Source of the DNA: Janibacter limosus | GTDB lineage: Bacteria > Actinomycetota > Actinomycetes > Actinomycetales > Dermatophilaceae | Length of the DNA stretch: 64,000 nucleotides | Assembly (NCBI RefSeq): GCF_004295485.1 | Contig: NZ_CP036164.1 | Location: 868,001-932,000, forward strand | Direction: 5' to 3' | Shown here: piece by piece, positions 8,851 through 24,250 of the stretch | How the letters are laid out: each line of letters starts with the position of its first letter | Position numbering within the stretch: position 1 is the first letter of the stretch | Position numbers and translations under genes: made by a program | The notes under the pieces: model-generated | Database searches by the model: none | Seen by the model: the letters and a program-made list of their open reading frames with translations, nothing else | Told to the model about the DNA's origin: nothing

Positions 8851-8912
8851 TTCGTCATCCCCCTGTGGATACTCGGCGGGCGAGGTCGCCGGATCCGGCT
8901 TACGGTGGTCCG

Positions 8913-8930
8913 GCACCGTTGGGACGGTGC
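8913..8930 (+). promoter_or_regulatory. Small hairpin in the leader of the 542-aa membrane protein
   Basis: Perfect 7-bp stem (GCACCGT/ACGGTGC, loop TGGG) just after a TACGGT -10-like hexamer (8901-8906) and before a short run of CACACACGC repeats. It may be a leader structure or an operator. Confidence 0.35.
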
Positions 8931-8973
8931 GGTGCACACGCCACACACGCCACACACGCAGGGGGACATCTTC

Positions 8974-10602
8974 ATGAAGGCCGCGCGCATCCTCGCCGGG
9001 ATCATCGCCGTCGTACTCGTCGTCGTCGGGGCCGCGGTCGCGGTCCTGCTCGGACCGGACGACACGTGGGGTGGTGAGCCGACGGCCCTGCCCGACGGTG
9101 CGGCCCCGATCGTCGCGACGGCGCCCAGACTGCTCAACGTCGCCGGGGTCGACCTCGTGGTCAGCGCCACGGCGGCAGAGGGTGAGGCCTTTGTCGGGGC
9201 GGGCCACCCCGTGCACGTGCAGGACTACCTGGGCGAGGTCACGCGTACCGAGATCACCGGGCTGTCGGCCGACGGGATCGGCGGCTCGCAGCAGCTGGCA
9301 GGGGAGCGGGACTACCCGGCCGCACCTCCGTCGCGGCTCGACGTCTGGGACCAGCAGGACCAGGGCCGTGAGGCGGCGATCGAGGTCCCGCTCACGCCCG
9401 ACGCCCCCGTCCAGATCGCGGCGCTGCCGGCCACGGCGAAGGGAGCAGCCCCCCAGGTCGGGATCGGCTACCAGCTGCCCGGGGCCTTCGTCGCCGGTGT
9501 CGTGATGGCGCTCGTCGGTCTGCTGCTGCTGGCGGCAATGATCCTCTGGGGCCGCCGGGCCCGGCGCGCGGCCGCCCGCCGAGCCGAGGCCCGATCGGTC
9601 GAGCGGCCTGTCGAGCAGGCGGTCGCCCCAGCGAGCCTCTCCCGCAGTGCCACCCGGGTCGCCCTCGTCGGCACGATCGCAGTGCTCTCGACAGGCTGCA
9701 CGGTCCCGCAGGAGGTCGACCACGGGGACTCTTCCGGGGTCGTGCCCCTCGAGCAGGCCGATGCCCAGGCGATGCTCGACGACTACGACGTGCGCAACAA
9801 CGCCGCGATCAAGAAGTCACACACGGGTGACGGCAGCCTGTGGAAGACCGCCGACACGGGTCCGATGCTCGCCCAGGACGAGCTGTCGGCGCGCTTCGAC
9901 GCCTACGACAAGCCCAAGGGCGCGGCAAAACCCCTCACCCATGAGGGCGGACGGGTCTACGCGCCCGTGCAACAGGCCTACCCGCTGTGGGCCGCGGTCG
10001 AGATGAAGCCCGCCAAGCCCGCCAAACCTGCCAAGGACGGCGCGGAGACGCTCTACGTCTACACCAAGGACCACGCGGCCGGCGAGTGGAAGGCCAGCTC
10101 CTCCATGTCCTTGGCCGACGGTCTGCCGACGGCGCTGGGCCCCGAGGAGGCCGCTCCGTCGTCGCAGGACCTGGAGCGTGCAGAGGACGTGGACACCCTG
10201 CTGGAGACGTGGGCGGAGAGTGGCGCGGTCAACGGGTTGGTCGTGGACCAGGACATGAAGGATGCGCGCACCGAGCTGCACAAGAAGGCCAAGGGCGTCG
10301 AGCGCATCGCCGACTCGGCCGACTCGTGGGGCGGTACCCGCGACACGGGTGACGCGCAGCCCGCCGTCCGGGCGATCCGGGTGAAGGAGGGTCTCCTCGT
10401 GCTGAGCGAGATCCGCTGGACCAGCAGCCACTACCTCAAGGCCGACTGGACGTGGAACCCGTCGAAGCGGGAGCAGGCGGTCTACGGGAACCGTGCCAAC
10501 GGCAATGTCTCGCACCGGCGCTGCTCGCTCGTCGCAGCGACCCTCGTGCCGGACACCGGGGACGCGCGGGTCCTCGGCTCGAGCACGTCCTGGGTCCTCT
10601 AG
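8974..10602 (+). CDS. Uncharacterised bipartite membrane/lipoprotein-like protein
   Basis: 542 residues, family not recognised. The start MKAARILAGI is set by a GGGGGA site. An N-terminal membrane helix (about residues 8-28) is followed by an extracytoplasmic domain of about 140 residues, a second helix (about 172-195, LVGLLLLAAMILWG) and a basic cytosolic-like stretch. A third hydrophobic stretch then ends in LSTGC with Cys242, looking just like a lipoprotein signal with lipobox. The remaining 300 residues are soluble, with a PAKPAKPAK linker. The whole reads as a membrane protein fused in frame to a lipoprotein. It is monocistronic between pnp and the Liv block. No function is assigned. Confidence 0.8.
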   Translation: MKAARILAGIIAVVLVVVGAAVAVLLGPDDTWGGEPTALPDGAAPIVATAPRLLNVAGVDLVVSATAAEGEAFVGAGHPVHVQDYLGEVTRTEITGLSADGIGGSQQLAGERDYPAAPPSRLDVWDQQDQGREAAIEVPLTPDAPVQIAALPATAKGAAPQVGIGYQLPGAFVAGVVMALVGLLLLAAMILWGRRARRAAARRAEARSVERPVEQAVAPASLSRSATRVALVGTIAVLSTGCTVPQEVDHGDSSGVVPLEQADAQAMLDDYDVRNNAAIKKSHTGDGSLWKTADTGPMLAQDELSARFDAYDKPKGAAKPLTHEGGRVYAPVQQAYPLWAAVEMKPAKPAKPAKDGAETLYVYTKDHAAGEWKASSSMSLADGLPTALGPEEAAPSSQDLERAEDVDTLLETWAESGAVNGLVVDQDMKDARTELHKKAKGVERIADSADSWGGTRDTGDAQPAVRAIRVKEGLLVLSEIRWTSSHYLKADWTWNPSKREQAVYGNRANGNVSHRRCSLVAATLVPDTGDARVLGSSTSWVL

Positions 10603-10621: not shown

Positions 10622-11839
10622 TCAGTCCCACACCCGGGTGTCGAGGATCGGGCCCTCGGCGGGCGTCAGCCGGTCGACCGCCACGACCTCTGCGCTGAAG
10701 CGCAGCCCCTCACGGATCCGCTGGGTGACCTGCTGCACCTGGTCCGCGGGGTCGGTGCCCGGAGCCAGGACGACCTCGCAGCGCAGGGTGTCGAGGTGGT
10801 CGGTGCGGCCGATGACGAAGCGGTGGTCGACGACGGACGGGAGCCGGGACATGACCGACGCGGTCTGCGCCGGGTGGAGGAACATCCCCTTCACCTTCAC
10901 CGCCGAGCCGGTACGACCCAGCACACCCCGCAGACGGAGCGAGCCGTCCGGCCCGAGCATCCACCCCGACAGGTCGCCGGTCCCGAACCGGACCAAGGGA
11001 TAGTCGGGACGCAGCACGGTGACGACGACCTCCCCTTCGCTCTCGTCCTCGATCGGCTCCCCGGTGCCGATGTCGCACACCTGCACCAGGACGCCGTCGG
11101 CCAGAACCAGGCCGGCACCGTCGCCCACCTCGTAGGCGAGCAGACCGGTCTCGCCGGTGCCGTAGGCCATGCACACCGAGTCGACGCGGGCCGTGAGTGC
11201 GGCTCGCAGCGAGTCCGGGAGTGGCTCCGCCGTGACCATGGCCCGGCGCAGCTGCCACGCCTGCGGCGGCAGCCCGAGCTCGTCGAAGCGGTCGATGAGT
11301 GCCTTGAGGTAGCTCGGCAGACCGCTGTACGTGCTCACCCCCAGGTCCGCGATGGCCCGGGCCTGCAGGTCCTGGTTGCCGATGCCTGCGGGGAGCACCG
11401 CTGCGCCGGTGGCGAGCAGGCCCTCCTCCATCATCGCGCCAGCGGGGGAGAGGTGGTACCCGAAGCAGTTGATCGCCGTGTCCCCGGACCCGACGCCGAG
11501 GTGGGTGAAGACCTGCCCCCAGCGCCAGTAGTCGGGGGCGTCCAGCTGGGGTTCGTACAGCGGGCCGGGCGACTGGAAGACCCGCTGCACGGCCGCACCG
11601 GGAGCGAGCAGACCACCGAAGGGGGGAGTGCTCGCCTGCTCGGCGACGAGGTCGTCCTTGGACAGCACGGGCAACGCGCTCAGGTCGGCCACCGAGCGGA
11701 CCGATCCGGGGTCGATCCCGGCCCGGTCCAGTCGTGCGGCCAGGCCCGGGACCGCCCCGGCACGGGTGATCAGGTCCGTGACGGCCTGATCCATCGCGCG
11801 GTGGGCGAGGTGCTCACCGATCGCAACGTGGAGGGACAT
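10622..11839 (-). CDS. PaaK-like AMP-forming ligase homologue (degenerate P-loop)
   Basis: 405 residues, related to phenylacetate-CoA ligases of the adenylate-forming superfamily, last gene of the Liv operon. The adenine-binding region is recognisable (VCMAYGTGETGLLAYEVGD), as is the C-terminal hinge area (FGTGDLSGW, GRTGSAVKVKGMFLHP). The position of the normal SSGTTGKPT phosphate loop instead reads FQSPGPLYEP, and no clear catalytic lysine motif follows the hinge. GAGGAGCT lies upstream of the ATG. It may be a divergent CoA ligase, or it may bind acyl substrate without adenylation. Activity is unproven. Confidence 0.8.
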   Translation of the reverse strand: MSLHVAIGEHLAHRAMDQAVTDLITRAGAVPGLAARLDRAGIDPGSVRSVADLSALPVLSKDDLVAEQASTPPFGGLLAPGAAVQRVFQSPGPLYEPQLDAPDYWRWGQVFTHLGVGSGDTAINCFGYHLSPAGAMMEEGLLATGAAVLPAGIGNQDLQARAIADLGVSTYSGLPSYLKALIDRFDELGLPPQAWQLRRAMVTAEPLPDSLRAALTARVDSVCMAYGTGETGLLAYEVGDGAGLVLADGVLVQVCDIGTGEPIEDESEGEVVVTVLRPDYPLVRFGTGDLSGWMLGPDGSLRLRGVLGRTGSAVKVKGMFLHPAQTASVMSRLPSVVDHRFVIGRTDHLDTLRCEVVLAPGTDPADQVQQVTQRIREGLRFSAEVVAVDRLTPAEGPILDTRVWD

Positions 11840-11879
11840 GACAGCTCCTCGTGGAGGTCCGGATGGGGAAGGGGGTGGG

Positions 11880-12722
11880 TCACAGCCAGCGCTTGCGGCG
11901 CTTGTAGTGCTTGACGTCCCGGTAGCTCTTGCGGCTGCCCTCCTCGCCGAGGCCGAGGTAGAACTCCTTGACGTCAGGGTTCTCGCTCAGCTCGGCTGCG
12001 GGTCCCTCGAGGACGATCCGGCCCTGCTCCATGATGAAGCCGTGGTCGGCGATCTCGAGGGCCCGTCGAGCGTTCTGCTCGATGACCAGGACGGTCAGCC
12101 CCTGCTCGACGTTGAGCCGCTTGATGTACCCGAAGATCTCCTGGACGAGCAGCGGAGCGAGACCCAGTGAGGGCTCGTCGAGCATGAGCAGCTTGGGCCG
12201 CGCCATCAGGGCACGCCCGATGGCCAGCATCTGCTGCTCACCGCCCGAGAGGTAGCCGGCGATCCGGGCCCGCATGTCGGCGAGCTTGGGGAAGAACTCG
12301 TAGACGAGCTCGAGGTCCTCCTTGCTCTCCTTGCGTGTGTAGGCGCCGGCCACGAGGTTGTCGGCGACGGTCAGGTGCGAGAAGACGTGACGGCCCTCCA
12401 TGCACAGGCTCATCCCACGTCGCACGCGCTCGGCAGCGTCCATCGAGGTGATGTCCTCGCCGGCGAAGGTCACCGAGCCGTCGGTGACGGCCCCGCGCTC
12501 GCTCGGCAGGAGCCCGGACACGGCCTTCAGCGTCGTGGACTTGCCGGCGCCGTTGGAGCCGAGGAGGGCCACGACCTGGCCCTCGGGTACGGACAGGGAG
12601 AGTCCGCGCAGCACCAGGATGACGTCGTCGTAGATGACCTCGACGTTGTTCAGGGTGAGCAGGCCCCCCGCGGGGGCGTCCGAGGACGCCCCCGCGAGCT
12701 GCTGAGCGGCGACCTGGCTCAC
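11880..12722 (-). CDS. livF: Branched-chain amino acid-type ABC transporter ATPase LivF
   Basis: One of the two cytosolic ATPases of a HAAT-family importer. It has 280 residues: Walker A GSNGAGKSTT, ABC signature LSGGEQQ, Walker B LLMLDEPSLGLAP and the H-loop. The LivF-type body is followed by a basic tail (about residues 262-280, ending HYKRRKRWL) absent from classical LivF. The GTG start overlaps the stop of the binding-protein gene (GTGA). Together with LivG, LivH, LivM and the lipoprotein it forms a complete importer. Confidence 0.93.
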   Translation of the reverse strand: MSQVAAQQLAGASSDAPAGGLLTLNNVEVIYDDVILVLRGLSLSVPEGQVVALLGSNGAGKSTTLKAVSGLLPSERGAVTDGSVTFAGEDITSMDAAERVRRGMSLCMEGRHVFSHLTVADNLVAGAYTRKESKEDLELVYEFFPKLADMRARIAGYLSGGEQQMLAIGRALMARPKLLMLDEPSLGLAPLLVQEIFGYIKRLNVEQGLTVLVIEQNARRALEIADHGFIMEQGRIVLEGPAAELSENPDVKEFYLGLGEEGSRKSYRDVKHYKRRKRWL

Positions 12723-13915
12723 GGCGTCGCGCCTGCCTTGACCTCGACCATCTTGCCGCCCTTGGCCGTGTAGATGCCGGTGGCGGAGGAGCCGCGGTGG
12801 CTCTCCGCGGTGAACTCCACGGTGCCGTTGCCGACGACGCCGCCGGTGTCCTGGCCGCCCATGGTCTCCAGCGACTTGCGGATGTTGGCGCCGGTCAGCT
12901 CGTCACCGTCCTTGAGGGTCTTCTCCATGCCCCCGGCCATGATGGCCATCGCGTACCAGCCCTGGACCCACGACGTGCCGACCTTCTTCTCGTCGATGCC
13001 CTTGGCCTTGATGTACTCGCTGATGACTTTGTGGCCCTCCTTGTCCGCAGACATCGGGGCGAAGGGCTGGATGAGCATGTGGCCCTCGGCGATCTTGGGT
13101 CCGGCCGAGTCGATGAAGAGCTCGTTGGCGCACCAGTTGAGGCAGACGATCTTCATGTCCAGCTTCTGCGCGGCGATGTCCTTGGCGACCAGCGCGGCAG
13201 GGGAGGCGACGTTCTGGATGACGATGTACTTCGCCCCCTGCTTCTTGGCCTGGGCGAGCAGGCCCACGTAGTTCTGCTGGCCGCCCGGCATCGCGTAGGA
13301 GGTGTAGCCGAGGTCGAGCTTCTTCTCGCCGATCCACTTCTTGCCGTCCGCGACGGGAGCGGTACCGAAGGGGCTGTCGTTGTGGAAGACCGCGACCTCG
13401 CTCTTGCCGCCGGCGTCCTCGGCGATCCAGTTGAGGGCGATGCGCATCTGGTCGGAGTACGTGGGTGCCACGACGAAGTTGTACGGCGCCTCCTTGGGGT
13501 CGGTCAGCGGCTCGGCGAAGGAGCCCGACATGAAGGGCAGCTCGTCCTTGCCGACGCTGCTCGAGAGCGCCTCGGTGTCACCGGTGCCCCAGCCCTGGAT
13601 GGCCACGACCTCGTCGTTCAGGTACTGCTTGTACAGCGTCTCGGCCTTGGGGACCTCGTAGGCGTAGTCGTTGGACAGCGCCTCGATCTTGCGGCCCTCG
13701 ATGCCCCCTTCGCTGTTGCGCCAGTCGATGTAGGCCTTCATGCCCTCGTTGTAGGGCGTCCCCACGTCACCGGTGGCGCCGGTGAGGTCGGCGATGATGC
13801 CGACCTTGATGGGCGAGCTGGAGTCGGCTCCGTCGGAGCCGCCACCGCCGCAGGCGGACAGCAGCAGGGCCGAGGCGGCGGCCATCGCGGCGAGTGAGCG
13901 AGTTCGTGCAGACAT
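12719..13915 (-). CDS. ABC transporter substrate-binding lipoprotein (Leu/Ile/Val-type fold)
   Basis: Extracytoplasmic binding protein of the importer, type I periplasmic fold (Peripla_BP_6). The start MSARTRSLAA has AAGGAG at the right distance; longer in-frame starts lack this. The signal peptide ends in the lipobox LLSAC, so Cys25 should be lipidated. The mature protein opens with SPIKVGIIADLTGATGDVG, typical of this fold. The product has 398 residues. The ligand cannot be read from sequence; the linked acyl-CoA synthetase suggests a carboxylic acid rather than an amino acid. Confidence 0.93.
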   Translation of the reverse strand: MSARTRSLAAMAAASALLLSACGGGGSDGADSSSPIKVGIIADLTGATGDVGTPYNEGMKAYIDWRNSEGGIEGRKIEALSNDYAYEVPKAETLYKQYLNDEVVAIQGWGTGDTEALSSSVGKDELPFMSGSFAEPLTDPKEAPYNFVVAPTYSDQMRIALNWIAEDAGGKSEVAVFHNDSPFGTAPVADGKKWIGEKKLDLGYTSYAMPGGQQNYVGLLAQAKKQGAKYIVIQNVASPAALVAKDIAAQKLDMKIVCLNWCANELFIDSAGPKIAEGHMLIQPFAPMSADKEGHKVISEYIKAKGIDEKKVGTSWVQGWYAMAIMAGGMEKTLKDGDELTGANIRKSLETMGGQDTGGVVGNGTVEFTAESHRGSSATGIYTAKGGKMVEVKAGATP

Positions 13916-13966
13916 CGTTGTCTCCTTCATGGGGTGGGGCACAGATCCAGTGGGTGTGGCGGGTGA

Positions 13967-15031
13967 TCAGTAGCGGAAGGGCCAGAACCTGACGTACTCC
14001 TTCATCCGTTGCCAGATGCGGTCGAGACCGCGTGGCTCGATGATGAGGAAGAGGATGATGACCAGACCGAAGGTGGCATTGCGCACGGCCGGCAGCTGGT
14101 CGGTGAGGAAGGGCATCGAGGAGCCCAGCGAGTTGGCGACCTGGCGGATGACCTCGGGCAGGAGCGTCATGAAGATGGCTCCGTAGACGGCCCCGGCGAT
14201 GCTGCCCAGCCCGCCGACGATGATCATCGCGAGGTAGAGGATCGACACGTCGAGGGTGAACTTCTCCCACGACACGACCTCGCTGTAGTGGGCGGTGAGG
14301 GCGCCGGCGAGGCCGACGAAGCCGGACGAGATGGCGAAGGCGGTCAGCTTGACCCGGGCCAGGTTGACCCCGATCGCCTCGGCGGCGATGTCCTGGTCAC
14401 GCACCGCCATGAAGGAGCGACCCAGTCCGGTCCGGAAGAGGTTGCGTGCGGAGAGCACCGTCAGCGTGGCGAGGACGAGCAGGATCCAGTACCACTGCTG
14501 CTCGAAGACGGCCCGTGCGCCGACCTGGAAGCCGAAGACCTCGAAGCGGTCGACGTTGAGGTAGCCCTGGCCCTCGGTCAGCCACGACCAGCGGCGGATG
14601 ACGAACTCGATGATCATCTGGCTGGCGAGCGTGGCGATCGCCAGGTACAGGCCCTTCAGGCGCAGGCCGGGGAGTCCGAAGAAGGTCCCGACGGCGGCGG
14701 AGAGCAGGACGGCTCCGATGATCGCCAGGGGTGTCGGGAGCCCGATGCGGTCGGAGAAGATCGCCGAGCTGTAGGCGCCCACTGCCATGAAGCCGCCCTG
14801 GCCCAGGGAGATCTGACCGGTGTACCCGACGAGGATGTTCAGCCCCACGGCGCCGATGACGGCGATGAGGATCAGGTTGGCCTGGGAGAGCCAGTAGTTG
14901 TCGAGGACGAAGGGCAGGACGAGCAGCAGGACCGTGAGCAGGCCCAGACGGAAGTACTCGGCACGCGTGGCCCGCAGGCGCAGCTCGGAGACATAGGTGC
15001 GGTGGTGGATACCGGTGGCGGTGGCGGCCAT
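13967..15031 (-). CDS. livM: Branched-chain amino acid-type ABC permease LivM
   Basis: Membrane permease subunit, 354 residues, eight or more hydrophobic segments, with the family hallmark LNILVGYTGQISLGQGGFMAVGAY and the coupling region EAIGVNLARVKLTAFAIS. The C-terminus carries a charged extension ending RFWPFRY. It begins 7 nt after livH, and a 51-nt gap separates it from the binding-protein gene, long enough to hold the strong ribosome site of that highly needed subunit. Confidence 0.94.
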   Translation of the reverse strand: MAATATGIHHRTYVSELRLRATRAEYFRLGLLTVLLLVLPFVLDNYWLSQANLILIAVIGAVGLNILVGYTGQISLGQGGFMAVGAYSSAIFSDRIGLPTPLAIIGAVLLSAAVGTFFGLPGLRLKGLYLAIATLASQMIIEFVIRRWSWLTEGQGYLNVDRFEVFGFQVGARAVFEQQWYWILLVLATLTVLSARNLFRTGLGRSFMAVRDQDIAAEAIGVNLARVKLTAFAISSGFVGLAGALTAHYSEVVSWEKFTLDVSILYLAMIIVGGLGSIAGAVYGAIFMTLLPEVIRQVANSLGSSMPFLTDQLPAVRNATFGLVIILFLIIEPRGLDRIWQRMKEYVRFWPFRY

Positions 15032-15038
15032 CGTCAGG

Positions 15039-15911
15039 TCACACCCTCTCGATCCGGGTCTCGCCGAAGATCCCGTACGGACGTACGAGCAGGATCAGGA
15101 CGAGAGCGATGTACGGGATGACGGTGGCGAGACCCGGGTCGAGGTACCCACCGGTGAACTGCTGCAGCAGGCCGATGACCAGTCCGCCGACGATGGTCCC
15201 GGGCACGGAGTCGAGCCCGCCCAGGATGACGACGGGGAAGACGAGCAACCCGAAGGACGCGATGTTCTGGTCGACCGCGGAGATGTCACCGACGAGCACC
15301 CCCGCGATCAGGGCGCTGACGCCGGCCAGCGCCCAGGCGAGGGCGAAGATCCGGCGTACCGAGATCCCCATCGTCATGGCGGCCTGCTGGTCATCGGCGA
15401 CGGCCCGCATGGCGATGCCGTGCCGGGACCGTCGGAAGAAGATGGTGAAGGCGGTCAGGACGATGCCGGCGATGAGGATCGCCAACAACCTGTTGATCGG
15501 CACGCTGGCGCCGAGCAGGCTGAGCGATCCGGTGGGCAGGATCTTCGGCTGGCTCTTGGGCGCGGTGCCGAAGAAGGCCTGGACCAGCGCGTTGAGCAGC
15601 GCGGACAGCCCGATCGTCACCATGATGATGCTGATCGGGTTCTCGCCCACCATCGGCCGCAGGATGAAGCGCTCGACGACGACCCCGATCACGATCGCGA
15701 CGAGGACCCCGATGAGCGCGGCGGCGATGAGTGGGAGCTGCAGCACGACGAAGGCGGTGTAGAAGGTGTACGCCCCGACGAGCAGGAACTCTCCCTGGGC
15801 GAAGTTGATGACGCCGGTCGCCTTGTAGATCAGGACGAACCCGAGGGCAGCAAGGGCGAGGATGGATCCATCGGCCAACCCGTAGATCAGCTGGTTGAGG
15901 AAGGTGCTCAT
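15039..15911 (-). CDS. livH: Branched-chain amino acid-type ABC permease LivH
   Basis: Membrane permease subunit partnering LivM; 290 residues starting MSTFLNQLIYGL. Family hallmarks are GLADGSILALAALGF and TGVINFAQGEFLLVGAYTF, and the segment MRAVADDQQAAMTMGI is the ATPase-coupling loop. The ATG overlaps the stop of the upstream acyl-CoA synthetase (ATGA), so importer and activating enzyme are translationally coupled. Confidence 0.94.
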   Translation of the reverse strand: MSTFLNQLIYGLADGSILALAALGFVLIYKATGVINFAQGEFLLVGAYTFYTAFVVLQLPLIAAALIGVLVAIVIGVVVERFILRPMVGENPISIIMVTIGLSALLNALVQAFFGTAPKSQPKILPTGSLSLLGASVPINRLLAILIAGIVLTAFTIFFRRSRHGIAMRAVADDQQAAMTMGISVRRIFALAWALAGVSALIAGVLVGDISAVDQNIASFGLLVFPVVILGGLDSVPGTIVGGLVIGLLQQFTGGYLDPGLATVIPYIALVLILLVRPYGIFGETRIERV

Positions 15912-17893
15912 CGGCGACCACTCCAGACGGGTCGGCGGCCCCGGCCTGGCGGGACCGAGTAGGTGGTCAGGTCGAAGATGGTCAGCTCCAGCTCGCGGTC
16001 GATGCTCGAGCCGTCCTGGTAGGTCACGCGGCTGCGCACCGAGACCTGCTCGTCGCCGCGCCCGAGGGCGGCGATGATGTCGCCGTAGCGGTCGGCGATG
16101 ACCGAGCGGCGCACCTTGCGGGTACGGGTGATCTCGTCGTCGTCGGGGTCCAGCTGCTTGTGCAGCAGGACGAAGCGCTCGACCCGGATCCCCTCGGGGA
16201 GGTCCTCGTTGGCCCGGGTCGCCTCCTCCGCGACCAGCTCCTGCACCTCGGGCTTGGCGGCGAGGTCGGTGAAGGTCGTGTAGCTCAGGCGCTCGTGCTC
16301 GGCCCAAGCGCCCACGGTCGCCGGGTCGATGATGATCAGTGCGGTCATGCCCTGCCGCTCTCCGCTGGGCGCGAAGACCACGGCCTCCTCGATGTACGGC
16401 GAGAACTTCAGCTTGTTCTCGATGAAGGCGCTGGAGTACCGGGTGCCGTCGGGGGCGGTCAGGACGTCCTTGGCCCGGTCGATGATGACCAGGTGCCCGG
16501 CGTCGTCGAGGTACCCGGCGTCGCCGGTGCTGAGCCAACCCTCGGCGTCGACGACCTTGGCGGTCTCCTCCGGCTGACGGTGGTAGCCGCGGAAGACGGA
16601 CGCCGAGCGCAGCAGGACCTCGCCCCCTTCGTCGATCCGCAGCTCGGTCCCCGGGATCGGGGTGCCGACGGTGTTGAAGGGGACGTCGTCGTCGCGGTGG
16701 AGCACCGCGATCCCGCAGATCTCGGTCTGACCGTAGATCTGCTTGAGGTTGACGCCGATGGCGTGGAAGAAGCGGAAGACGTCCGGTCCCAGTGGCGCCC
16801 CGCCGGTGTAGCAGCGTTGGATCCGCGCCAGACCCAGCTGGTCGCGGACCGGTCGGGTCGCGACGGCGTCGGCCACCTTGTGGGTCAGCGCCAGGAGCGG
16901 TCCGGGCTTGCGCCCGCTGACCCGCATCGCGGCCACCTTGTCCCCGACGCCGTAGCCCCAGCCGAAGATGCGTCGCTTGAACCAGTCCGACTCGTCGATG
17001 CGCACCTGGACCTCGGAGAGCATCGACTCCCAGATCCGGGGTGGCGAGAACATCAGGTCCGGCCCGATCTCCCGCATGTCGCTGCGCTGGGTGGAGGCGT
17101 CCTCGGGGAAGGAGATCGTCAGGCCGTGCGAGAGCCCGCAGGCGACGGCGAGCATCTGCTCCCCGATCCAGGCGAAGGGGAGGAAGGAGACGTAGCGGTC
17201 CTTGGTCGAGACCGGGTCGATGCTGGTCAGGTGCTCGGCCATGGCCAGCAGGTTGCGGTGGGAGAGCTCGGCCAGCTTGGGCTTGGAGGTCGTCCCGGAG
17301 GTGGTGCAGATGATCGCGATGTCGTCCGCGTCGCCCTGCTCCACCTGCCCTGCGAGCCAGTGCGGCAGCTCGACGGCCCGCTCGACGCCCGTGGCCTCGA
17401 GATCGGTGAACTCCATGAGCACGGGGTCGGTGTACTGCTCGAGGCCGTGCGGGTCGTAGTACACGATCCGCTCGATGTGCAGGGGTGCAGCGTCCGCGGG
17501 CGCCTCCTCGGCGAGCAGCCGCAGCAGCTTGTCGACCTGCTCCTGGTCCTCCGCGACAACGACCCGCGCCCGCGAGGTGGCCAGGATGTGGTGCAGCTCC
17601 TCGCCGATGGACGTGGGGTAGATGCCGACGACGGCGGCGCCGATGCTCTGCGCGGCCAGCTCGGCGATGAGCCACTCGGGACGGTTGTCGCCCAGGACGG
17701 CGATGACCTCCCCGCGCTCGACGCCCAGAGCCGCCAGCCCGTGGGCGGTCGCGTGGACCCGCTGGGCGTACTCGGACCAGGTGAGCGGCTGCCAGATGCC
17801 GTAGAGCTTCTCCTGCATGGCGACGGCGTCGGGACGAGTCGCTGCGAGGCCGGCGAGCAGCCTCGGGAAGGTGTCCGCGGACGGGTCAGACAT
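15908..17893 (-). CDS. Long-chain-type acyl-CoA synthetase (FadD-like)
   Basis: AMP-forming ligase that would activate a carboxylic acid to its CoA thioester on the cytosolic side. It has 661 residues. The phosphate loop TTSGTTSKPK is intact, YGQTE marks the adenine site, and GDAGYLDDAGHLVIIDRAKD supplies the hinge aspartate. The C-terminal domain is complete, followed by an extra tail ending VPPGRGRRPVWSG. It sits inside the Liv operon, overlapping livG by 8 nt and livH by 4 nt, so import and activation are made together. The substrate (fatty, aromatic or terpenoid acid) is not readable from sequence. Confidence 0.92.
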   Translation of the reverse strand: MSDPSADTFPRLLAGLAATRPDAVAMQEKLYGIWQPLTWSEYAQRVHATAHGLAALGVERGEVIAVLGDNRPEWLIAELAAQSIGAAVVGIYPTSIGEELHHILATSRARVVVAEDQEQVDKLLRLLAEEAPADAAPLHIERIVYYDPHGLEQYTDPVLMEFTDLEATGVERAVELPHWLAGQVEQGDADDIAIICTTSGTTSKPKLAELSHRNLLAMAEHLTSIDPVSTKDRYVSFLPFAWIGEQMLAVACGLSHGLTISFPEDASTQRSDMREIGPDLMFSPPRIWESMLSEVQVRIDESDWFKRRIFGWGYGVGDKVAAMRVSGRKPGPLLALTHKVADAVATRPVRDQLGLARIQRCYTGGAPLGPDVFRFFHAIGVNLKQIYGQTEICGIAVLHRDDDVPFNTVGTPIPGTELRIDEGGEVLLRSASVFRGYHRQPEETAKVVDAEGWLSTGDAGYLDDAGHLVIIDRAKDVLTAPDGTRYSSAFIENKLKFSPYIEEAVVFAPSGERQGMTALIIIDPATVGAWAEHERLSYTTFTDLAAKPEVQELVAEEATRANEDLPEGIRVERFVLLHKQLDPDDDEITRTRKVRRSVIADRYGDIIAALGRGDEQVSVRSRVTYQDGSSIDRELELTIFDLTTYSVPPGRGRRPVWSGRR

Positions 17894-18764
17894 TGACGGC
17901 CCCTTCTTCTTCGGCGCCCAGGTAGGCCTCGATGACGGCCGGCTCGGCCATCACCTCCGCAGGTGTCCCGTCGGCGATGAGGACCCCGAAGTCCAGGACG
18001 CTCACCCGGTGCGAGATGTCCATGACGACGTTCATGTCGTGCTCGATGAGCACGACCGAGACCTTGGCCAGCTCGTTGACATCGAGGATGTAGCGGGCCA
18101 TGTCCTCCTTCTCCTCGGCGTTCATGCCGGCCATCGGCTCGTCGAGCAGGAGGAGCGAGGGCTGCAGGCACAGGGCCCGGCCGAGCTCCACGCGCTTCTG
18201 CACGCCGTAGGCCAGCGAGCCGACCGGCTTGGTCCGCACCGACTGCAGCTGCAGGAGGTCGATGACCTCCTCGACGAGCTGTCGGTGGGCGATCTCCTGT
18301 CGCCTGGCCGGGCCGAACCACAGCATCGACTGCAGGACGCTGTGGCGCATGTGGATGTGCCGGCCGAGCATGAGGTTGTCCAGCACGCTCATCGCGTGGA
18401 AGAGCTCGATGTTCTGGAAGGAGCGGGCGACGCCGAGGCGCGCGATCCGGTGCGGCGCCAAGGTGGTCAGCTCGTGCTCGTGCCGAGAGCCGGCCTCTCC
18501 GTCGCTGCCCTCGTCCGCGGTGTGCAGGCGGATGCGCCCGTCCTGCGGGTGGTAGAGCCCGCTGATGCAGTTCAGCAACGAGGACTTGCCGGCACCGTTG
18601 GGCCCGATGACGGCGTGGATGTGTCCCTCGGTGACCCGGAAGGACACCTCGCTCAAGGCGGTGACGCCCCCGAACCGCAGAGTTGCCTCCTCGATGTCGA
18701 GGAGTGGCTCTCCCGCCGGGAGATGACCGCCTCGCAAGGAGTGCTTGTAGGACCTGGTCAGCAC
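17886..18764 (-). CDS. livG: Branched-chain amino acid-type ABC transporter ATPase LivG
   Basis: First gene of the operon and second ATPase of the importer; 292 residues. A GTG start is chosen because AGGAGGG lies 3 nt before it; an upstream ATG in frame would run through the promoter. Walker A is GPNGAGKSSL; a LivG-type signature region (GSLAYGVQKRVELGRAL) and Walker B LLLLDEPMAGMN are present. An insert rich in Asp/Glu/His (about residues 90-110) departs from standard LivG. Expression is likely controlled from the palindrome-bearing promoter upstream. Confidence 0.93.
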   Translation of the reverse strand: MLTRSYKHSLRGGHLPAGEPLLDIEEATLRFGGVTALSEVSFRVTEGHIHAVIGPNGAGKSSLLNCISGLYHPQDGRIRLHTADEGSDGEAGSRHEHELTTLAPHRIARLGVARSFQNIELFHAMSVLDNLMLGRHIHMRHSVLQSMLWFGPARRQEIAHRQLVEEVIDLLQLQSVRTKPVGSLAYGVQKRVELGRALCLQPSLLLLDEPMAGMNAEEKEDMARYILDVNELAKVSVVLIEHDMNVVMDISHRVSVLDFGVLIADGTPAEVMAEPAVIEAYLGAEEEGAVNV

Positions 18765-18809
18765 TGACCCTCCTGATCGCCGCTTCGACAGTGAAACCGG
18801 AACGATCCG

Positions 18810-18839
18810 ACAATACGTTTTCACTATGTGAAAGCGCAA
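18810..18839 (-). promoter_or_regulatory. Promoter of the liv/acyl-CoA synthetase operon
   Basis: On the minus strand TTGCGC (18839-18834) is followed after 18 nt by TATTGT (18815-18810), a fair sigma-70-type promoter for livG. The region is AT-richer than its surroundings. Confidence 0.55.
18819..18833. promoter_or_regulatory. Candidate IclR operator (palindrome in promoter spacer)
   Basis: TTTCAC-TAT-GTGAAA, a perfect 6+6 palindrome lying entirely within the spacer of the livG promoter and between the divergent livG and iclR genes. A further GTGAAA occurs at 18791-18796. A bound dimer would block polymerase; assignment to the adjacent IclR protein is inference. Confidence 0.55.
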
Positions 18840-18923
18840 TACCTTCTACGGAAATGTTCAACGGACTGTGGTTGACTGCATGACACAAAGAAACTGTCGA
18901 CATCAACAGGCGGAGGAGGTCGC

Positions 18924-19688
18924 ATGGCAGGCGGTCGAGCGAGCGAGGGCAGCGTCGGGCGAGGTGGACTCGGGACCGTCCGCAACGCAGTCGTCCTGCT
19001 GGACCTGCTGGGCGAGGGACCCGCCCTGCAGCACCTCACCGACCTCGCCGAGCGCTCGCAGATGTCGATCCCCACGGTCCATCGACTCCTGCGCTCGCTC
19101 GTGCTGGCCGACCTCGTGGTCCAGGACCCCCAGTCCTCCCGCTACGGCCTCGGGCCAGAGCTGACCCGGTTGTCCAACCACTACCTCTCGCGGCTGCCGC
19201 TGCTCGGCGCCCTCAGCCCCTACCTGTCCCAGCTGCGCGACGAGCTGGGCCGCACCGTGCACGTCCAGATCCTCGTGCACGGCGAGGTCATCTACGTCGA
19301 CCGCGTCGACGGCGCCGAGCGGGACCCCTACCGCGAGACCCACCGGGTGGGTTCGGCCCTGTCCTGCGCCGGAGGTCGCATCATCGCCGCCCGGGCGAGC
19401 GATGACGAGTGGCGACAAGCGCTGGCACGGGCGACGCGGGAGGACCGCGAGGTGGCGACCGACGCCGAGCGGGCCCGATGGGCCTCGCTCGAGCACCTGG
19501 CTCTCACGCCCGCCGACCCGGCGCTGCCCGCAGAGGTCGCCGTGGGCCTGGTGGACGGACAGGGGTTGACGGTGGCGGCGCTCGCTGCCACCGTCCCTGA
19601 TGCTGCCGACACCGAGGCCGTCACCAAGGCGGCCGTCCATCTGGGCCGAGCGGCTCGGGCAGCGGGGAGGACGCTGGGACATGCCTGA
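18924..19688 (+). CDS. IclR-family transcriptional regulator
   Basis: 254 residues: an N-terminal winged helix-turn-helix (HLTDLAERSQMSIPTVHRLLRSL, about residues 33-55) followed by an effector-binding GAF-like domain (VHVQILVHGEVIYVDRVDG onwards). A GGAGGAGG site precedes the ATG. It is divergent from the liv operon and co-transcribed with the Acs-like gene, which starts 8 nt before its stop. IclR proteins commonly control aromatic or fatty acid degradation, which suits this locus. The effector is unknown. Confidence 0.92.
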   Translation: MAGGRASEGSVGRGGLGTVRNAVVLLDLLGEGPALQHLTDLAERSQMSIPTVHRLLRSLVLADLVVQDPQSSRYGLGPELTRLSNHYLSRLPLLGALSPYLSQLRDELGRTVHVQILVHGEVIYVDRVDGAERDPYRETHRVGSALSCAGGRIIAARASDDEWRQALARATREDREVATDAERARWASLEHLALTPADPALPAEVAVGLVDGQGLTVAALAATVPDAADTEAVTKAAVHLGRAARAAGRTLGHA

Positions 19689-21549
19689 TCGTGAGCCGTA
19701 CCCGGGGAGCACGCCGCCGGACCCGGCGTGGGCGGAGATCGCCGGGCTCATCGACTTCGACCACCCGTACGCCGCGCTCTGGACCCCGGGTCCGCGGTCG
19801 GGGCGCTGGTTCGCCGATGCGATGGCCAACCTGTCGACCAACTGCATCGACCGCCACCTCGTCGACGGCGCCGACCGGGTCGCTCTGCACTGGGAGGGAG
19901 AGCCGGGCGACCGGCGCTCGCTCACCTACGCGGACCTGCACCAGCAGGTGGTCGTCCTCACCCGTGCCCTGCGCGGGATGGGGGTCGGGGTCGGCGACCG
20001 GGTGGGCCTGCACCTGGGCTGGTTGCCCGAGACGGTCGTGGCCATGCTCGCCTGTGCGCGCCTGGGGGCGATCCACGCGGTCCTGCCCGCTCCGCTGCCG
20101 ATCGAGCCCCTCGCCGACCGGTTGGGCGCGCTGGACCTCAAGGTGCTCTTCACCCAGGACGGCGCCTGGCGGCACGGGACCGTGCTGCCGACCAAGGCGC
20201 GTGCTGACGAGGCGCTGCTGGCCAGCGGGTCGGTCGAGCACACCATCGTCGTGCGCCGCACCGGCATGGACGTGGCCTGGTTCGAAGGGGATCGGTGGTA
20301 CCACGACATCGTCGGACCAACCCGACGCACGCCGGCGGAGTCTGGCGAGGACGAGGGCGACCTCGGCGCACCCGTGTCCCTCCCGGCGGACCACCCCATC
20401 TCCATCGTCCCGCTGGCCACCAAGGGCGGACAGCCCGTGTCCGTCCTCCATGGGGCCGCGACGATGTTGGCCGGTGCGCTCGCCGTCCACCGGCGGCTGC
20501 GGACCGGCGGCGTCTTCTGGTGCGCCGGGGACATCTCCTGGGCCGTCACCCAGTTCCACGGCATCTACGGCCCGCTCGCCTACGGGGACACGGCGGTCAT
20601 GTACGAGGGGACGCTCGACCAGCCGGCTCCGACCCGGGCCTGGGAGATCATCGCGCGCTACGGCGTGGAGAGCATGGTGTCCACGCCCTCCGTCATGCGC
20701 ACAGTGCGGGGCTGGGCGCGGGAGCTGCCCGAGGTCTCGCGCATCCCGTCCCTGCTGCGGGTGACCACGGCCGGTGAGCCCGTCGAGAGCGACCTCGCCG
20801 AGTGGCTGACGCAGGCCTTCGGGGCCAAGGACCTGCAGGTGCTCGACGCCTGGGGCCAGCTCGAGCTCAGCGGGATCGTGCGGGTGATGGACACCGCGGA
20901 CCCCGGGCTTGGCGGAGCAGGAGGGGAGACGGCCCTGCCCGACTGCGACCTCGACATCGTCGATGCTGCCGGCGAGCCCACGCCCCCGGGGCGTGCGGGC
21001 GAGGCCGTGCTGCGCCTCCCGTGGGCGGGCACGCTCGTCGACGTCGAGGGCGACCACGCCGATGTCGCGCAGTCGCACTGGACGCGCCACCCCGGGTGCT
21101 ACGCCACCGGTGACCTCGCGTCGCGGGACGAGCGTGGCCACATCGCCTTCCTCGGTCGTACCGACGGGGTGGTCTCGATCTCCGGTCAGCTGGTGTCGCT
21201 CCGAGAGGTCCGCGAGGTCCTCGAGGACCACCCCTACGTCTCGGCCGCGGAGGTGACCTGGCGCAAGGACGCCGAGCTGGGTCGCGCGCTCGTCGCCGCG
21301 GTCGTCCTCGATCCCCAGGTCGGCCCCGACCCGGACCTGGACGAGGTGGCAGTGGGACTGATGAACGCCGTGCGGGAGATCATGGGCGGCCTTGCGCGCC
21401 CGCGCTCCCTGCTGGTCATCGACCGATTCGGCGACGAGCTCGGTCGGCTCGAGCGGGCCCGGGCGATCGCCACCCTGGCCACGCCCGACCGGGTCGGTGC
21501 GCCTCGCGAGGTCACGTGGTCACAGGTCCTCGCCGCCGCCGGCCAGTGA
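19681..21549 (+). CDS. Acetyl-CoA synthetase-like protein with degenerate catalytic motifs
   Basis: 622 residues, clearly of acetyl/propionyl-CoA synthetase ancestry (VFWCAGDISWAVTQFHGIYG, and the hinge-region GRTDGVVSISGQLVSLREV). Key positions are altered. The phosphate loop expected as TSGSTGxPKG reads LATKGGQPVS, the adenine motif WWQTE reads AWGQLE, and the C-terminal catalytic-lysine motif (RSGKIxR type) reads FGDELGRLERAR with no lysine. It is translated overlapping the IclR gene. It may be a non-adenylating acyl-binding sensor or a pseudoenzyme partner; alternatively it is a divergent ligase. Confidence 0.85.
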   Translation: MPDREPYPGSTPPDPAWAEIAGLIDFDHPYAALWTPGPRSGRWFADAMANLSTNCIDRHLVDGADRVALHWEGEPGDRRSLTYADLHQQVVVLTRALRGMGVGVGDRVGLHLGWLPETVVAMLACARLGAIHAVLPAPLPIEPLADRLGALDLKVLFTQDGAWRHGTVLPTKARADEALLASGSVEHTIVVRRTGMDVAWFEGDRWYHDIVGPTRRTPAESGEDEGDLGAPVSLPADHPISIVPLATKGGQPVSVLHGAATMLAGALAVHRRLRTGGVFWCAGDISWAVTQFHGIYGPLAYGDTAVMYEGTLDQPAPTRAWEIIARYGVESMVSTPSVMRTVRGWARELPEVSRIPSLLRVTTAGEPVESDLAEWLTQAFGAKDLQVLDAWGQLELSGIVRVMDTADPGLGGAGGETALPDCDLDIVDAAGEPTPPGRAGEAVLRLPWAGTLVDVEGDHADVAQSHWTRHPGCYATGDLASRDERGHIAFLGRTDGVVSISGQLVSLREVREVLEDHPYVSAAEVTWRKDAELGRALVAAVVLDPQVGPDPDLDEVAVGLMNAVREIMGGLARPRSLLVIDRFGDELGRLERARAIATLATPDRVGAPREVTWSQVLAAAGQ

Positions 21550-22666: not shown

Positions 22667-22987
22667 TCAGCCCCAGCCCAGCGCTCGCAGCGCGGCGGCG
22701 AGGGCGGCCGCGGCGAGGACGACGATGACGAAGTTGGCCCGCAGCCACAGCAGGACGACGGCCAGGGCGACGGCGACGAGCCGGGCATCGAGCACGATGC
22801 CCTCGTCGCCGCCGACCGTCTGCGTGACGACGAGGCCGGCGAGCAGGGCGACCGGCAGCAGGCCGATGACCCGCGAGCGTCGAGGCCCGTCGACGAGCGT
22901 CTCGGGGACGAGGTGACCGAGGTACTTCGTCGCGAAACCCAGGACGCAGGCGGCCAGGACCGCGGCCCACAGCACGGTGGTGCTCAC
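22667..22987 (-). CDS. azlD: Branched-chain amino acid exporter small subunit AzlD
   Basis: 106-residue membrane protein with four hydrophobic segments, AzlD family. It forms an exporter with AzlC. Starts at GTG overlapping azlC by four bases (GTGA). Last gene of a minus-strand set echA-GNAT-azlC-azlD. Confidence 0.88.
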   Translation of the reverse strand: MSTTVLWAAVLAACVLGFATKYLGHLVPETLVDGPRRSRVIGLLPVALLAGLVVTQTVGGDEGIVLDARLVAVALAVVLLWLRANFVIVVLAAAALAAALRALGWG

Positions 22988-23706
22988 AGCAGGTCTCCCT
23001 CGGGCTGCTCGAGGTCGCGGGCGCGGCTCGGTGCGGAGGAGATCAGGCCGACGACGACGGCAGCGAGTGCAGCGAGGAGCACCGGGACGCCGGCGGGCGT
23101 CGGCCCGAAGGCGATGAGCGCGATGGCCGCGGCCAGGGCCGCGGTCACCCGACCCGTGCGGTCCCGCAGCCGTGGCCAGATGAGCCCGACGAAGGCGGCG
23201 GCAGCCGCTGCGTCGAGCCCCCACACCCGTGGGTCCCCGATGGCGTTGCCGACGACGGCGCCGACGAGGGTCGAGAGGTTCCAGAAGGTGAAGACACCCA
23301 GTCCGCCGGCCCAGAAGCCGGTCCGCTGGACGGCGGGGTCCTGCTGGGCGAGGGCGACGGCGGTCGACTCGTCGATCGTCAGATGGGCGGCAGCGGCCCG
23401 GCGCCAGCCCGTCAGGCGCAGGACCCGTGCGAGCTGCAGACCGTAGAGGCCGTTGCGGATCCCGAGGAGGGTCGAGGTGACGACAGCGGTGACGGGGTTG
23501 CCGCCGGCGCTGATGATGCCGATGAAGGCGAACTGGGACCCGCCGGTGAAGAGCAGCAGCGACAGGGCCACGGTCTGCCACAGGTCGAGCCCGGCAGCGA
23601 TCCCCAGCGCTCCGAAGCTCACGCCGTAGATGCCGGTCGCCAGGCCGACGGAGAGTCCCTGACGACGTGCTGCGGCGTGCTCGACGACCAGTGGGTCAGT
23701 CGTCAC
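22984..23706 (-). CDS. azlC: Branched-chain amino acid exporter large subunit AzlC
   Basis: 240-residue permease with the AzlC hallmark GVSFGALGIAAGLDLWQTVALSLL and LLFTGGSQFAFIG. It pairs with AzlD to export branched-chain amino acids or analogues. The GTG start overlaps the GNAT stop by 11 nt; starting at the valine before TTDPLVVEH gives the normal length. Confidence 0.9.
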   Translation of the reverse strand: MTTDPLVVEHAAARRQGLSVGLATGIYGVSFGALGIAAGLDLWQTVALSLLLFTGGSQFAFIGIISAGGNPVTAVVTSTLLGIRNGLYGLQLARVLRLTGWRRAAAAHLTIDESTAVALAQQDPAVQRTGFWAGGLGVFTFWNLSTLVGAVVGNAIGDPRVWGLDAAAAAAFVGLIWPRLRDRTGRVTAALAAAIALIAFGPTPAGVPVLLAALAAVVVGLISSAPSRARDLEQPEGDLL

Positions 23707-24250
23707 CCGGCTCCTCCACGAGGGTGGCGACGAGGCGCACCTCGCGGGCGGTGTCCTCCTCCGGCGAGATGACCCGGTCGCGGAAGGCGCCGTCGGGGGT
23801 GAGCCCTGAGCCGGTGAGGAAGGCGCGCAGCGACTCGTGCTCGACCAGGCACCAGATTGCCACGTGCTCGGCCCCCGCCTCACGCAGGATGTCGACGGCG
23901 GCGTTGACCAGGCGTGAGCCGTGGCCCTGCCGGCGGTGCATCGGGTGCACGCCCAGCGCGGTGATCTCGCCCGTCGTCTGGCCGGCGTCCGGGTCCTGGC
24001 TCGGTCCGATCGCGACGAACCCGACGACCGCGTCGCCTGCACAGGAGACGAGGAGGCGGTGGACCCCCTCCGGTGGGGTGCGAAGGGAGTCCCTCCAGCC
24101 GGCCGCGAAGGCCTGCGGGTCGAAGGCGGCATGCACCTGTGGCGGGACGATGCCGTCGTAGGCCTCCTGCCAGACGAGGGCCTGGGTCTGCCCGACCGCG
24201 GGCGCGTCGTTGACCGTGGCGCTGCGGACGCTCGCGTCGGCGGAGGTCAT
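23696..24250 (-). CDS. GNAT-family N-acetyltransferase
   Basis: 184 residues with the acetyl-CoA binding motif A, LGVHPMHRRQGHGSRLV, and the following helix AAVDILREAG. It is most like small-molecule or peptide acetyltransferases; the substrate is unknown. Its ATG shares one base with the stop of the upstream crotonase gene, so it is coupled to it. Linkage with azlCD hints at amino acid metabolism, but that is inference. Confidence 0.9.
   Translation of the reverse strand: MTSADASVRSATVNDAPAVGQTQALVWQEAYDGIVPPQVHAAFDPQAFAAGWRDSLRTPPEGVHRLLVSCAGDAVVGFVAIGPSQDPDAGQTTGEITALGVHPMHRRQGHGSRLVNAAVDILREAGAEHVAIWCLVEHESLRAFLTGSGLTPDGAFRDRVISPEEDTAREVRLVATLVEEPGDD

Follow-up and report, generated by a model that had tools for sequence, protein, structure and literature searches.

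A conserved importer cassette with one intact acyl-CoA synthetase and a putative pseudoenzyme sensor encoded beside its IclR regulator

Does an operon that combines an importer with three adenylate-forming (ANL) proteins use all three to activate the imported compound, or have some of them left catalysis for another role? The question is raised by nine genes of Janibacter limosus, located in a 64,000-nucleotide stretch (positions 868,001 to 932,000 of contig NZ_CP036164.1, hereafter the window) of a 3.5 Mb genome in one contig. Seven genes on the minus strand encode an importer of the HAAT (Liv) type, an acyl-CoA synthetase that we call ACS1 and a PaaK-like protein. Divergent from them are the genes for an IclR-family regulator and an Acs-like protein, Acs2. 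Our analysis suggests a carboxylic-acid scavenging cassette in which Acs2 could serve as a pseudoenzyme ligand sensor for IclR, a reading that we regard as evenly balanced and that draws on sequence comparisons and predicted models. No account of the cassette or of an IclR/synthetase sensor is present in the literature searched, a body of text that excludes most subscription papers.

The cassette and its three adenylate-forming proteins

Two PaaK-like peptide patterns, an approach biased toward close relatives, identified 61 loci, mostly in Actinobacteria, across 84,980 species genomes. All nine genes are present in identical order and orientation at 42 of these, an indication that the arrangement is far from chance, and a further 15 display part of that order, in 13 cases starting no more than 100 bp from an end of the stretch. 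The four that differ are three contigs labelled Chloroflexi, with the PaaK-like gene and no cassette, and an Arenicellales contig with another gene order. The carriers include Ornithinimicrobium, Brevibacterium, Yaniella, Haloechinothrix, Phytoactinopolyspora and Nitriliruptoraceae. Judged by the PaaK-like gene, the nearest named relatives of the window are Janibacter, with 87 to 93% identity. Within the family (149 genomes) a clear PaaK-like ortholog occurs in 14 (at least 55% identity, the next match being at most 33%), a clear Acs2 ortholog in 15 (at least 46%, the next at 39%) and both in 13. At the level of the phylum, 11 of 396 genomes, that of the window included, give a PaaK-like match at E 1e-60.

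By its motifs ACS1 is the only one of the three adenylate-forming proteins with the catalytic apparatus intact. The P-loop (TSGTTxxPK) and the [YF]GQTE motif are kept in all 56 copies and the C-terminal lysine motif TRTRKVRR in 55, ten rows (second genome copies and short rows, including loci L138 and L122) having been dropped beforehand. The best NCBIfam model is FadD11 (NF038343) with a score of 326 bits, below the cut-off of 950 bits, and the enzyme is FadD11-like at most. We note that many actinobacterial copies have in common a C-terminal tail, RRPVWSGRR, beyond the AMP-binding match; it is a possible docking site.

The PaaK-like protein is different. At the position of the P-loop SPGP is found in 65 of 65 copies and the canonical [ST]SG[TS]TG in none, a count made after nine rows (second genome copies and short rows) were dropped, and the protein scores 94 bits against the 646-bit cut-off of the PaaK model. 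A pattern search finds SSGTTG in 13 of 16 PaaK relatives from genomes of the family. The PaaK-like protein is a probable pseudo-ligase, a conserved but non-canonical member of the superfamily. Our guess is that it acts as a carrier or modulator of the acyl-CoA or of ACS1.

Proteins with SPGP also occur elsewhere. The three Chloroflexi-labelled contigs (L127, L129 and L131) encode one near a frame that resembles enoyl-CoA hydratase by eye, and since no cassette is present there the SPGP family appears wider than the transporter operon. On plasmids of Sulfitobacter and Roseovarius indicus (L159, 10034-11230; L164, 10986-12182) the gene lies in clusters for acyl-CoA dehydrogenase and CoA-transferase, with no importer adjoining.

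Acs2 aligns over nearly its full length with Salmonella Acs. The AlphaFold2 model (pLDDT 85.8) has the Acs fold, and Foldseek matches it to Acs with an E value of 6e-62 and a TM score of 0.84. In a tree 25 Acs2 rows form a single clade (support 100/100) that is joined with canonical Acs (94/87). Residues were counted in 48 copies aligned with four canonical Acs as reference, seven rows (second genome copies and short rows) having been dropped. Each of the P-loop residues Thr264, Ser265, Gly266 and Lys272 is kept in none of the 48, and the column of the catalytic Lys609 holds lysine in one. Arg526 is replaced by leucine in 47. Much of the pocket is nevertheless preserved: Glu388, Trp413 and Gln415 in all 48 copies, Asp411, Asp500 and Arg515 in 47. 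Arg191 is likewise strictly conserved (48/48), and Trp414 (Salmonella numbering), which caps the pocket, is glycine in every copy.

Two papers help to interpret these differences. An arginine at position 191 is reported to contact the CoA phosphates (PMC10455477), while Arg526 and a threonine equivalent to Thr416, an equivalence derived from our own count from the tryptophan and not stated in the papers, are reported to contact the adenylate phosphate (PMC10455477, PMC8383264). According to the same papers, Trp416 of Acs governs the acyl range and the glycine variant accepts branched acids and acids of up to seven carbons (PMC10455477, PMC8383264). Acs2 is probably a pseudoenzyme. Since Thr416 and Arg526 are mostly lost, a free acid or a CoA ester is the likelier ligand for such a protein, in preference to the acyl-adenylate.

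The original prediction assigned activation of the acid to all three adenylate-forming proteins. That is not supported: the four P-loop residues of Acs2 are kept in 0 of 48 copies, a canonical P-loop is found in 0 of 65 PaaK-like copies, and ACS1 alone has the catalytic motifs intact.

The regulator, its operator-like site and a natural fusion

If Acs2 does not activate the acid, what might it do? The gene arrangement offers a lead. The likeliest start of acs2 is at 19681, where ATGCCTGA gives an overlap of 8 bp with the stop of iclR. The original prediction described the regulator as divergent and translationally coupled to the Acs-like protein; the start at 19600 first given for acs2 is the less likely one. 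An overlap of exactly this length occurs in 51 of the 56 other loci; once seven second genome copies are set aside, the figure is 44 of 49. The counting script takes the start closest to the aligned window start.

IclR matches HTH_IclR with 43 bits and IclR_C with 39.7 bits, both above cut-off, the latter match being limited to profile positions 2 to 92 of 174. The partial match hinted at loss of the effector domain, an idea that we reject because the model displays a full IclR fold.

The divergent region between livG and iclR contains a palindrome with the consensus TTTYCACTATSTGRAAR. After removal of seven second genome copies and one cut locus, it occurs with up to four mismatches in 40 of 51 divergent regions and with up to five in 47, against approximately 0.3% and 3% in block shuffles, with the qualifications that the consensus was drawn from the very sequences scored and that the shuffles preserve base composition only within 20-bp blocks. 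At one mismatch or fewer the palindrome is present once per genome in eight of eight carriers, and a reversed control gives none. In the window genome this site is at 18818-18834 of the window, and the coordinates place those of the other seven carriers in the divergent region also. No site beyond the cassette's own was found in the eight genomes at this threshold, weaker sites not having been searched. In some carriers, as in the window, the palindrome lies among the initial codons of the longest livG match. A single site per genome suggests that IclR is dedicated to the cassette, and the palindrome is its presumed binding site.

A second arrangement of the same kind is found on plasmids. In two annotated Azospirillum plasmid regions livG, synthetase, livH, livM, binding protein, livF and PaaK-like genes follow the order of the cassette, and the gene divergent from the operon encodes one protein in which an IclR helix-turn-helix (HTH) is joined to an AMP-binding domain. 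The fusion is seen in 13 of 13 Azospirillum records matched, out of 69 records with any match. The fused domain has a broken P-loop and lacks the C-terminal domain, whereas TSGT[TV]G and the C-terminal lysine are kept in all 30 synthetase relatives that were examined among 36 matches listed. In the tree the fused domain is separate from Acs2 and sits among other synthetases (99/98), which suggests that the pairing of an IclR HTH with a degenerate synthetase arose twice. Ten proteobacterial rows out of 30, and four of five canonical Acs, were chosen for the tree by P-loop patterns, such that their P-loops are given by selection; the count of the two motifs was made on all 30, and those four Acs are also the reference for the residue counts in Acs2.

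Proposed role, alternatives and substrate

We propose the following. The importer would carry the acid inside and ACS1 would trap it as the acyl-CoA, steps for which the protein families are seen and the actions deduced from them. IclR would sit on the palindrome in the divergent region. Acs2, presumably incapable of adenylation, may bind either the acid or the corresponding CoA ester in a widened Acs pocket, and its ligand state would be passed to IclR, with presence of the acid leading to induction of the operon. We place the signal between these two proteins on account of the 8 bp that their genes share and of the Azospirillum fusion. The broader idea is that IclR-type regulators acquired a dead acyl-CoA synthetase for ligand sensing on at least two occasions, once as a subunit encoded by an overlapping partner gene (Actinobacteria) and once as a domain fused directly (Azospirillum), both times ahead of an uptake operon of the same kind. 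We hold it tentatively, with somewhat less than even confidence.

A number of observations weigh against this proposal. The main weakness is that the IclR model is complete, including an effector domain of its own, and IclR may therefore respond to a ligand with no need of Acs2. The two are separate proteins in the cassette. Acs2 retains remnants of the P-loop (Gly269 in 32 and Pro271 in 35 of 48 copies) and in three copies a lysine lies within three columns of position 609, whilst the pocket is itself altered: Thr412 is alanine or glycine in all 48, and Thr416, Glu417 and Pro389 are kept in only 3, 33 and 36, respectively. Long branches are flagged in the tree and the samples are small. The fusion is seen in Azospirillum only; among the 36 matches listed, from 34 of 398 genomes at phylum level with about three candidates scored per genome, none is a full-length fusion and none begins before residue 87 of the query. 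A plasmid of Deinococcus taeanensis (L166, 9371-19392) shows the operon order, but there the divergent gene encodes a synthetase with intact motifs, and a dead sensor is hence not a feature of every such operon; no IclR is annotated beside this operon and its PaaK-like protein is without SPGP. Several other plasmid operons have TetR, LysR or other regulators nearby.

The alternatives are to be judged on the same evidence. Acs2 might tune or stabilize ACS1, or the PaaK-like protein, as a pseudoenzyme partner that is merely co-transcribed with iclR. That Acs2 is derived from a synthetase and accompanies one in all 42 full cassettes fits such a role, as does the complete effector fold of IclR; it is with iclR that acs2 overlaps, though, and not with the ACS1 gene, and the Azospirillum fusion joins a comparable domain to the IclR HTH. 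We consider this explanation unlikely. Still less likely is that Acs2 is an enzyme of altered chemistry, performing for example only the thioester half-reaction, or hydrolysing acyl-adenylate or acyl-CoA. Conservation of much of the pocket and of the arginine at the CoA-phosphate position would suit an enzyme of this type, but the change of Arg526 to leucine in 47 of 48 copies, the retention of Thr416 in three and the variability of the P-loop are more in keeping with a site free of catalytic demand.

Two further explanations appear improbable. The view that the imported acid is activated by each of the three adenylate-forming proteins has in its favour an AMP-binding match above cut-off in every one, and is contradicted by the absence of the P-loop residues from Acs2 and of a canonical P-loop from the PaaK-like protein already described. 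Marginally the least probable is that the importer simply serves branched-chain amino acids and that the genes adjoining it are unrelated. The HAAT components are indeed annotated as amino-acid transporters and the window genome has five other loci with PF13458. Yet a synthetase lies inside the operon both in the cassette and in its plasmid-borne relatives, and in 20-kb stretches around those five loci the Liv homologues are 28 to 47% identical and no homologue of ACS1, Acs2 or the PaaK-like protein is found at E 1e-10. On this point the original prediction, which favoured acid uptake and CoA activation over plain amino-acid transport, is supported by the conservation of the cassette and by the plasmid relatives, several of them beside genes of acyl-CoA catabolism.

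Which acid is imported? Most likely it is short to medium, perhaps branched. Plasmid searches with the PaaK-like protein and ACS1 gave 16 regions, a non-random sample taken from the top-ranked rows, of which 14 are annotated. An importer with synthetase is present in 12 of the 14, Deinococcus among them; the Methylibium operon is only partly annotated. Branched-acid genes, either of valine/leucine metabolism or for B12 acyl-CoA mutases, directly adjoin five of the 12 operons. That of Azospirillum brasilense adjoins isobutyryl-CoA and isovaleryl-CoA dehydrogenases and hydroxymethylglutaryl-CoA lyase, Peteryoungia is also among the five, and B12-type acyl-CoA mutases adjoin the operons of Xanthobacter Py2, Roseovarius THAF8 and Diaphorobacter, the last in a stretch where no PaaK-like gene is annotated. 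In Methylibium a gene of the mutase family is about 18 kb off. The Xanthobacter enzyme may be a pivalyl-CoA mutase and the Methylibium region one for 2-hydroxyisobutyrate, names on which the substrate guess does not depend. The neighbours of the plasmid operons, together with the change of tryptophan to glycine in Acs2, make a short branched acid our best guess, held a little more cautiously than the sensor idea.

This guess has its own difficulties. Seven of the 12 annotated plasmid operons, Methylibium included, have no directly adjoining branched-acid genes; for the other six of these there are general beta-oxidation-type genes in three and nothing clearly related in three. No catabolic family recurs beside the actinobacterial cassettes among 394 flanking frames that were clustered and read by eye, and the clusters that do recur look lineage-specific and housekeeping. 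The branched-acid idea then rests on relatives of approximately 35 to 46% identity. The best model for ACS1, at 326 of the 950 bits, is long-chain FadD11. Phenylacetate was considered and rejected as a constant partner: PaaA (TIGR02156) is above cut-off in none of nine Janibacter genomes (five carriers and four non-carriers) and in six of eight other carriers, and as a substrate it appears unlikely in Janibacter, less so in the other carriers.

Should the proposal prove correct, the cell detects an acid by means of a pocket related to the one in which that same acid would be activated, and metabolic ANL enzymes have been converted naturally into transcriptional sensors. By engineering, such enzymes have been turned into sensors with fluorescent proteins, as described in PMC10590383. 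The cassette would offer a regulator pair with one operator and one operon for the study of signalling from pseudoenzyme to DNA. It would also be a template for acid biosensors and give a lead to the substrate of a transporter-synthetase cassette that is annotated, part by part, for branched-chain amino acid transport. Caution would also be due with the labels 'AMP-binding protein' and 'PaaK', which here include proteins that probably do not ligate.

Locus layout, history and comparison with known systems

Coordinates are listed in Table 1. They and the profile matches agree with the nine positions and families first assigned, and with the statement that the seven minus-strand genes overlap or nearly abut. 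By the coordinates livG and ACS1 overlap by 8 bp, ACS1 and livH by 4 bp, and the binding-protein gene and livF by 4 bp; the gaps are 7 bp from livH to livM, 24 bp from livM to the longest binding-protein frame and 40 bp from livF to the PaaK-like gene. The true start of the lipoprotein may be an internal Met codon upstream of the signal peptide. Because the livG frame from 18839 crosses the operator-like site, the GTG at 18764 is the likelier start. The profile matches provide a complete set of HAAT importer parts, with two permeases, two ATPases and a Peripla_BP_6 lipoprotein.

Table 1. Features of the cassette, in window coordinates
Feature	Position	Strand	Matches and remarks
PaaK-like protein, 405 aa, probable pseudo-ligase, SPGP at P-loop	10622..11839	-	AMP-binding 34.5 bits
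livF-type ABC ATPase	11880..12722	-	ABC_tran 5e-30
Substrate-binding lipoprotein	12719..13942	-	Peripla_BP_6 3e-53; lipobox LSAC
livM-type permease	13967..15031	-	BPD_transp_2
livH-type permease	15039..15911	-	BPD_transp_2
ACS1, acyl-CoA synthetase with all catalytic motifs checked	15908..17893	-	best NCBIfam model FadD11, far below cut-off
livG-type ABC ATPase, frame as listed; GTG at 18764 is the likelier start	17886..18839	-	
Operator-like palindrome TTTTCACTATGTGAAAG, livG-iclR divergent region	18818..18834	+	
IclR-family regulator	18924..19688	+	HTH_IclR, IclR_C; full IclR fold in model
Acs2, Acs-derived probable pseudoenzyme, proposed sensor partner of IclR	19681..21549	+	8-bp overlap with iclR stop

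The cassette lies between pnp and dapB, as first described, with the correction that an unrelated 565-residue frame (8905-10602, plus strand) adjoins pnp. This frame has no Pfam match; in 13 other genomes searched it is matched in two carrier and one cassette-free Janibacter, with 56 to 84% identity. Directly past dapB, matches to AzlD and AzlC, a pair for branched-chain amino acid export, occupy 22667-24132 on the minus strand.

The interval holds the cassette in five of nine Janibacter genomes, and orthologs of the PaaK-like protein and Acs2 are both absent from the other four. Of these non-carriers, two have dapB approximately 0.55 kb past the aligned end of pnp, one has the order pnp, the frame at 8905, dapB, and in one the contig ends. 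A quick six-protein tree, with no bootstrap, places all five Janibacter cassettes in a single clade. Identity of pnp to that of the window is 92% in carriers G126 and G138, and 95, 94, 94 and 90% in the non-carriers. Taken together the pnp identities, the single clade and the loci of carriers and non-carriers fit one ancestral gain in Janibacter with losses later. The suggestion of an insertion is in that sense upheld as an old acquisition, and needs to be supplemented by the losses that followed. In other genera the neighbours of the cassette differ.

How does the cassette compare with known systems? With importers of the HAAT (LivFGHMJ) type it shares two permeases, two ATPases and the Peripla_BP_6 lipoprotein, to which it adds an acyl-CoA synthetase inside the operon and two degenerate ANL proteins. 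The regulators of acid catabolism PcaR, PobR and BlcR have in common with the cassette IclR the HTH, the full fold and a palindromic site in a divergent region; in the cassette, however, iclR overlaps a synthetase-derived gene, and in Azospirillum the two are fused. Acs2 and Salmonella Acs (PDB codes 1pg4, 5jrh) have the same fold and part of the pocket (Glu388, Asp411, Trp413, Gln415, Asp500 and Arg515) in common, whereas Acs2 is without the P-loop residues and Arg526, mostly without Thr416 and nearly always without Lys609, and has glycine for Trp414. The PaaK-like protein is homologous overall to PaaK (2y4o, 4r1l; E 2e-39 by profile), with SPGP where PaaK has SGTTG. Similar in form are the plasmid operons of Azospirillum, Xanthobacter Py2 and Roseovarius, in which the importer, ACS1 and the PaaK-like protein are homologous to those of the cassette, SPGP being present in nine of the ten plasmid PaaK-like copies aligned. 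They differ in having other regulators or the IclR fusion and, in some, adjoining catabolic genes.

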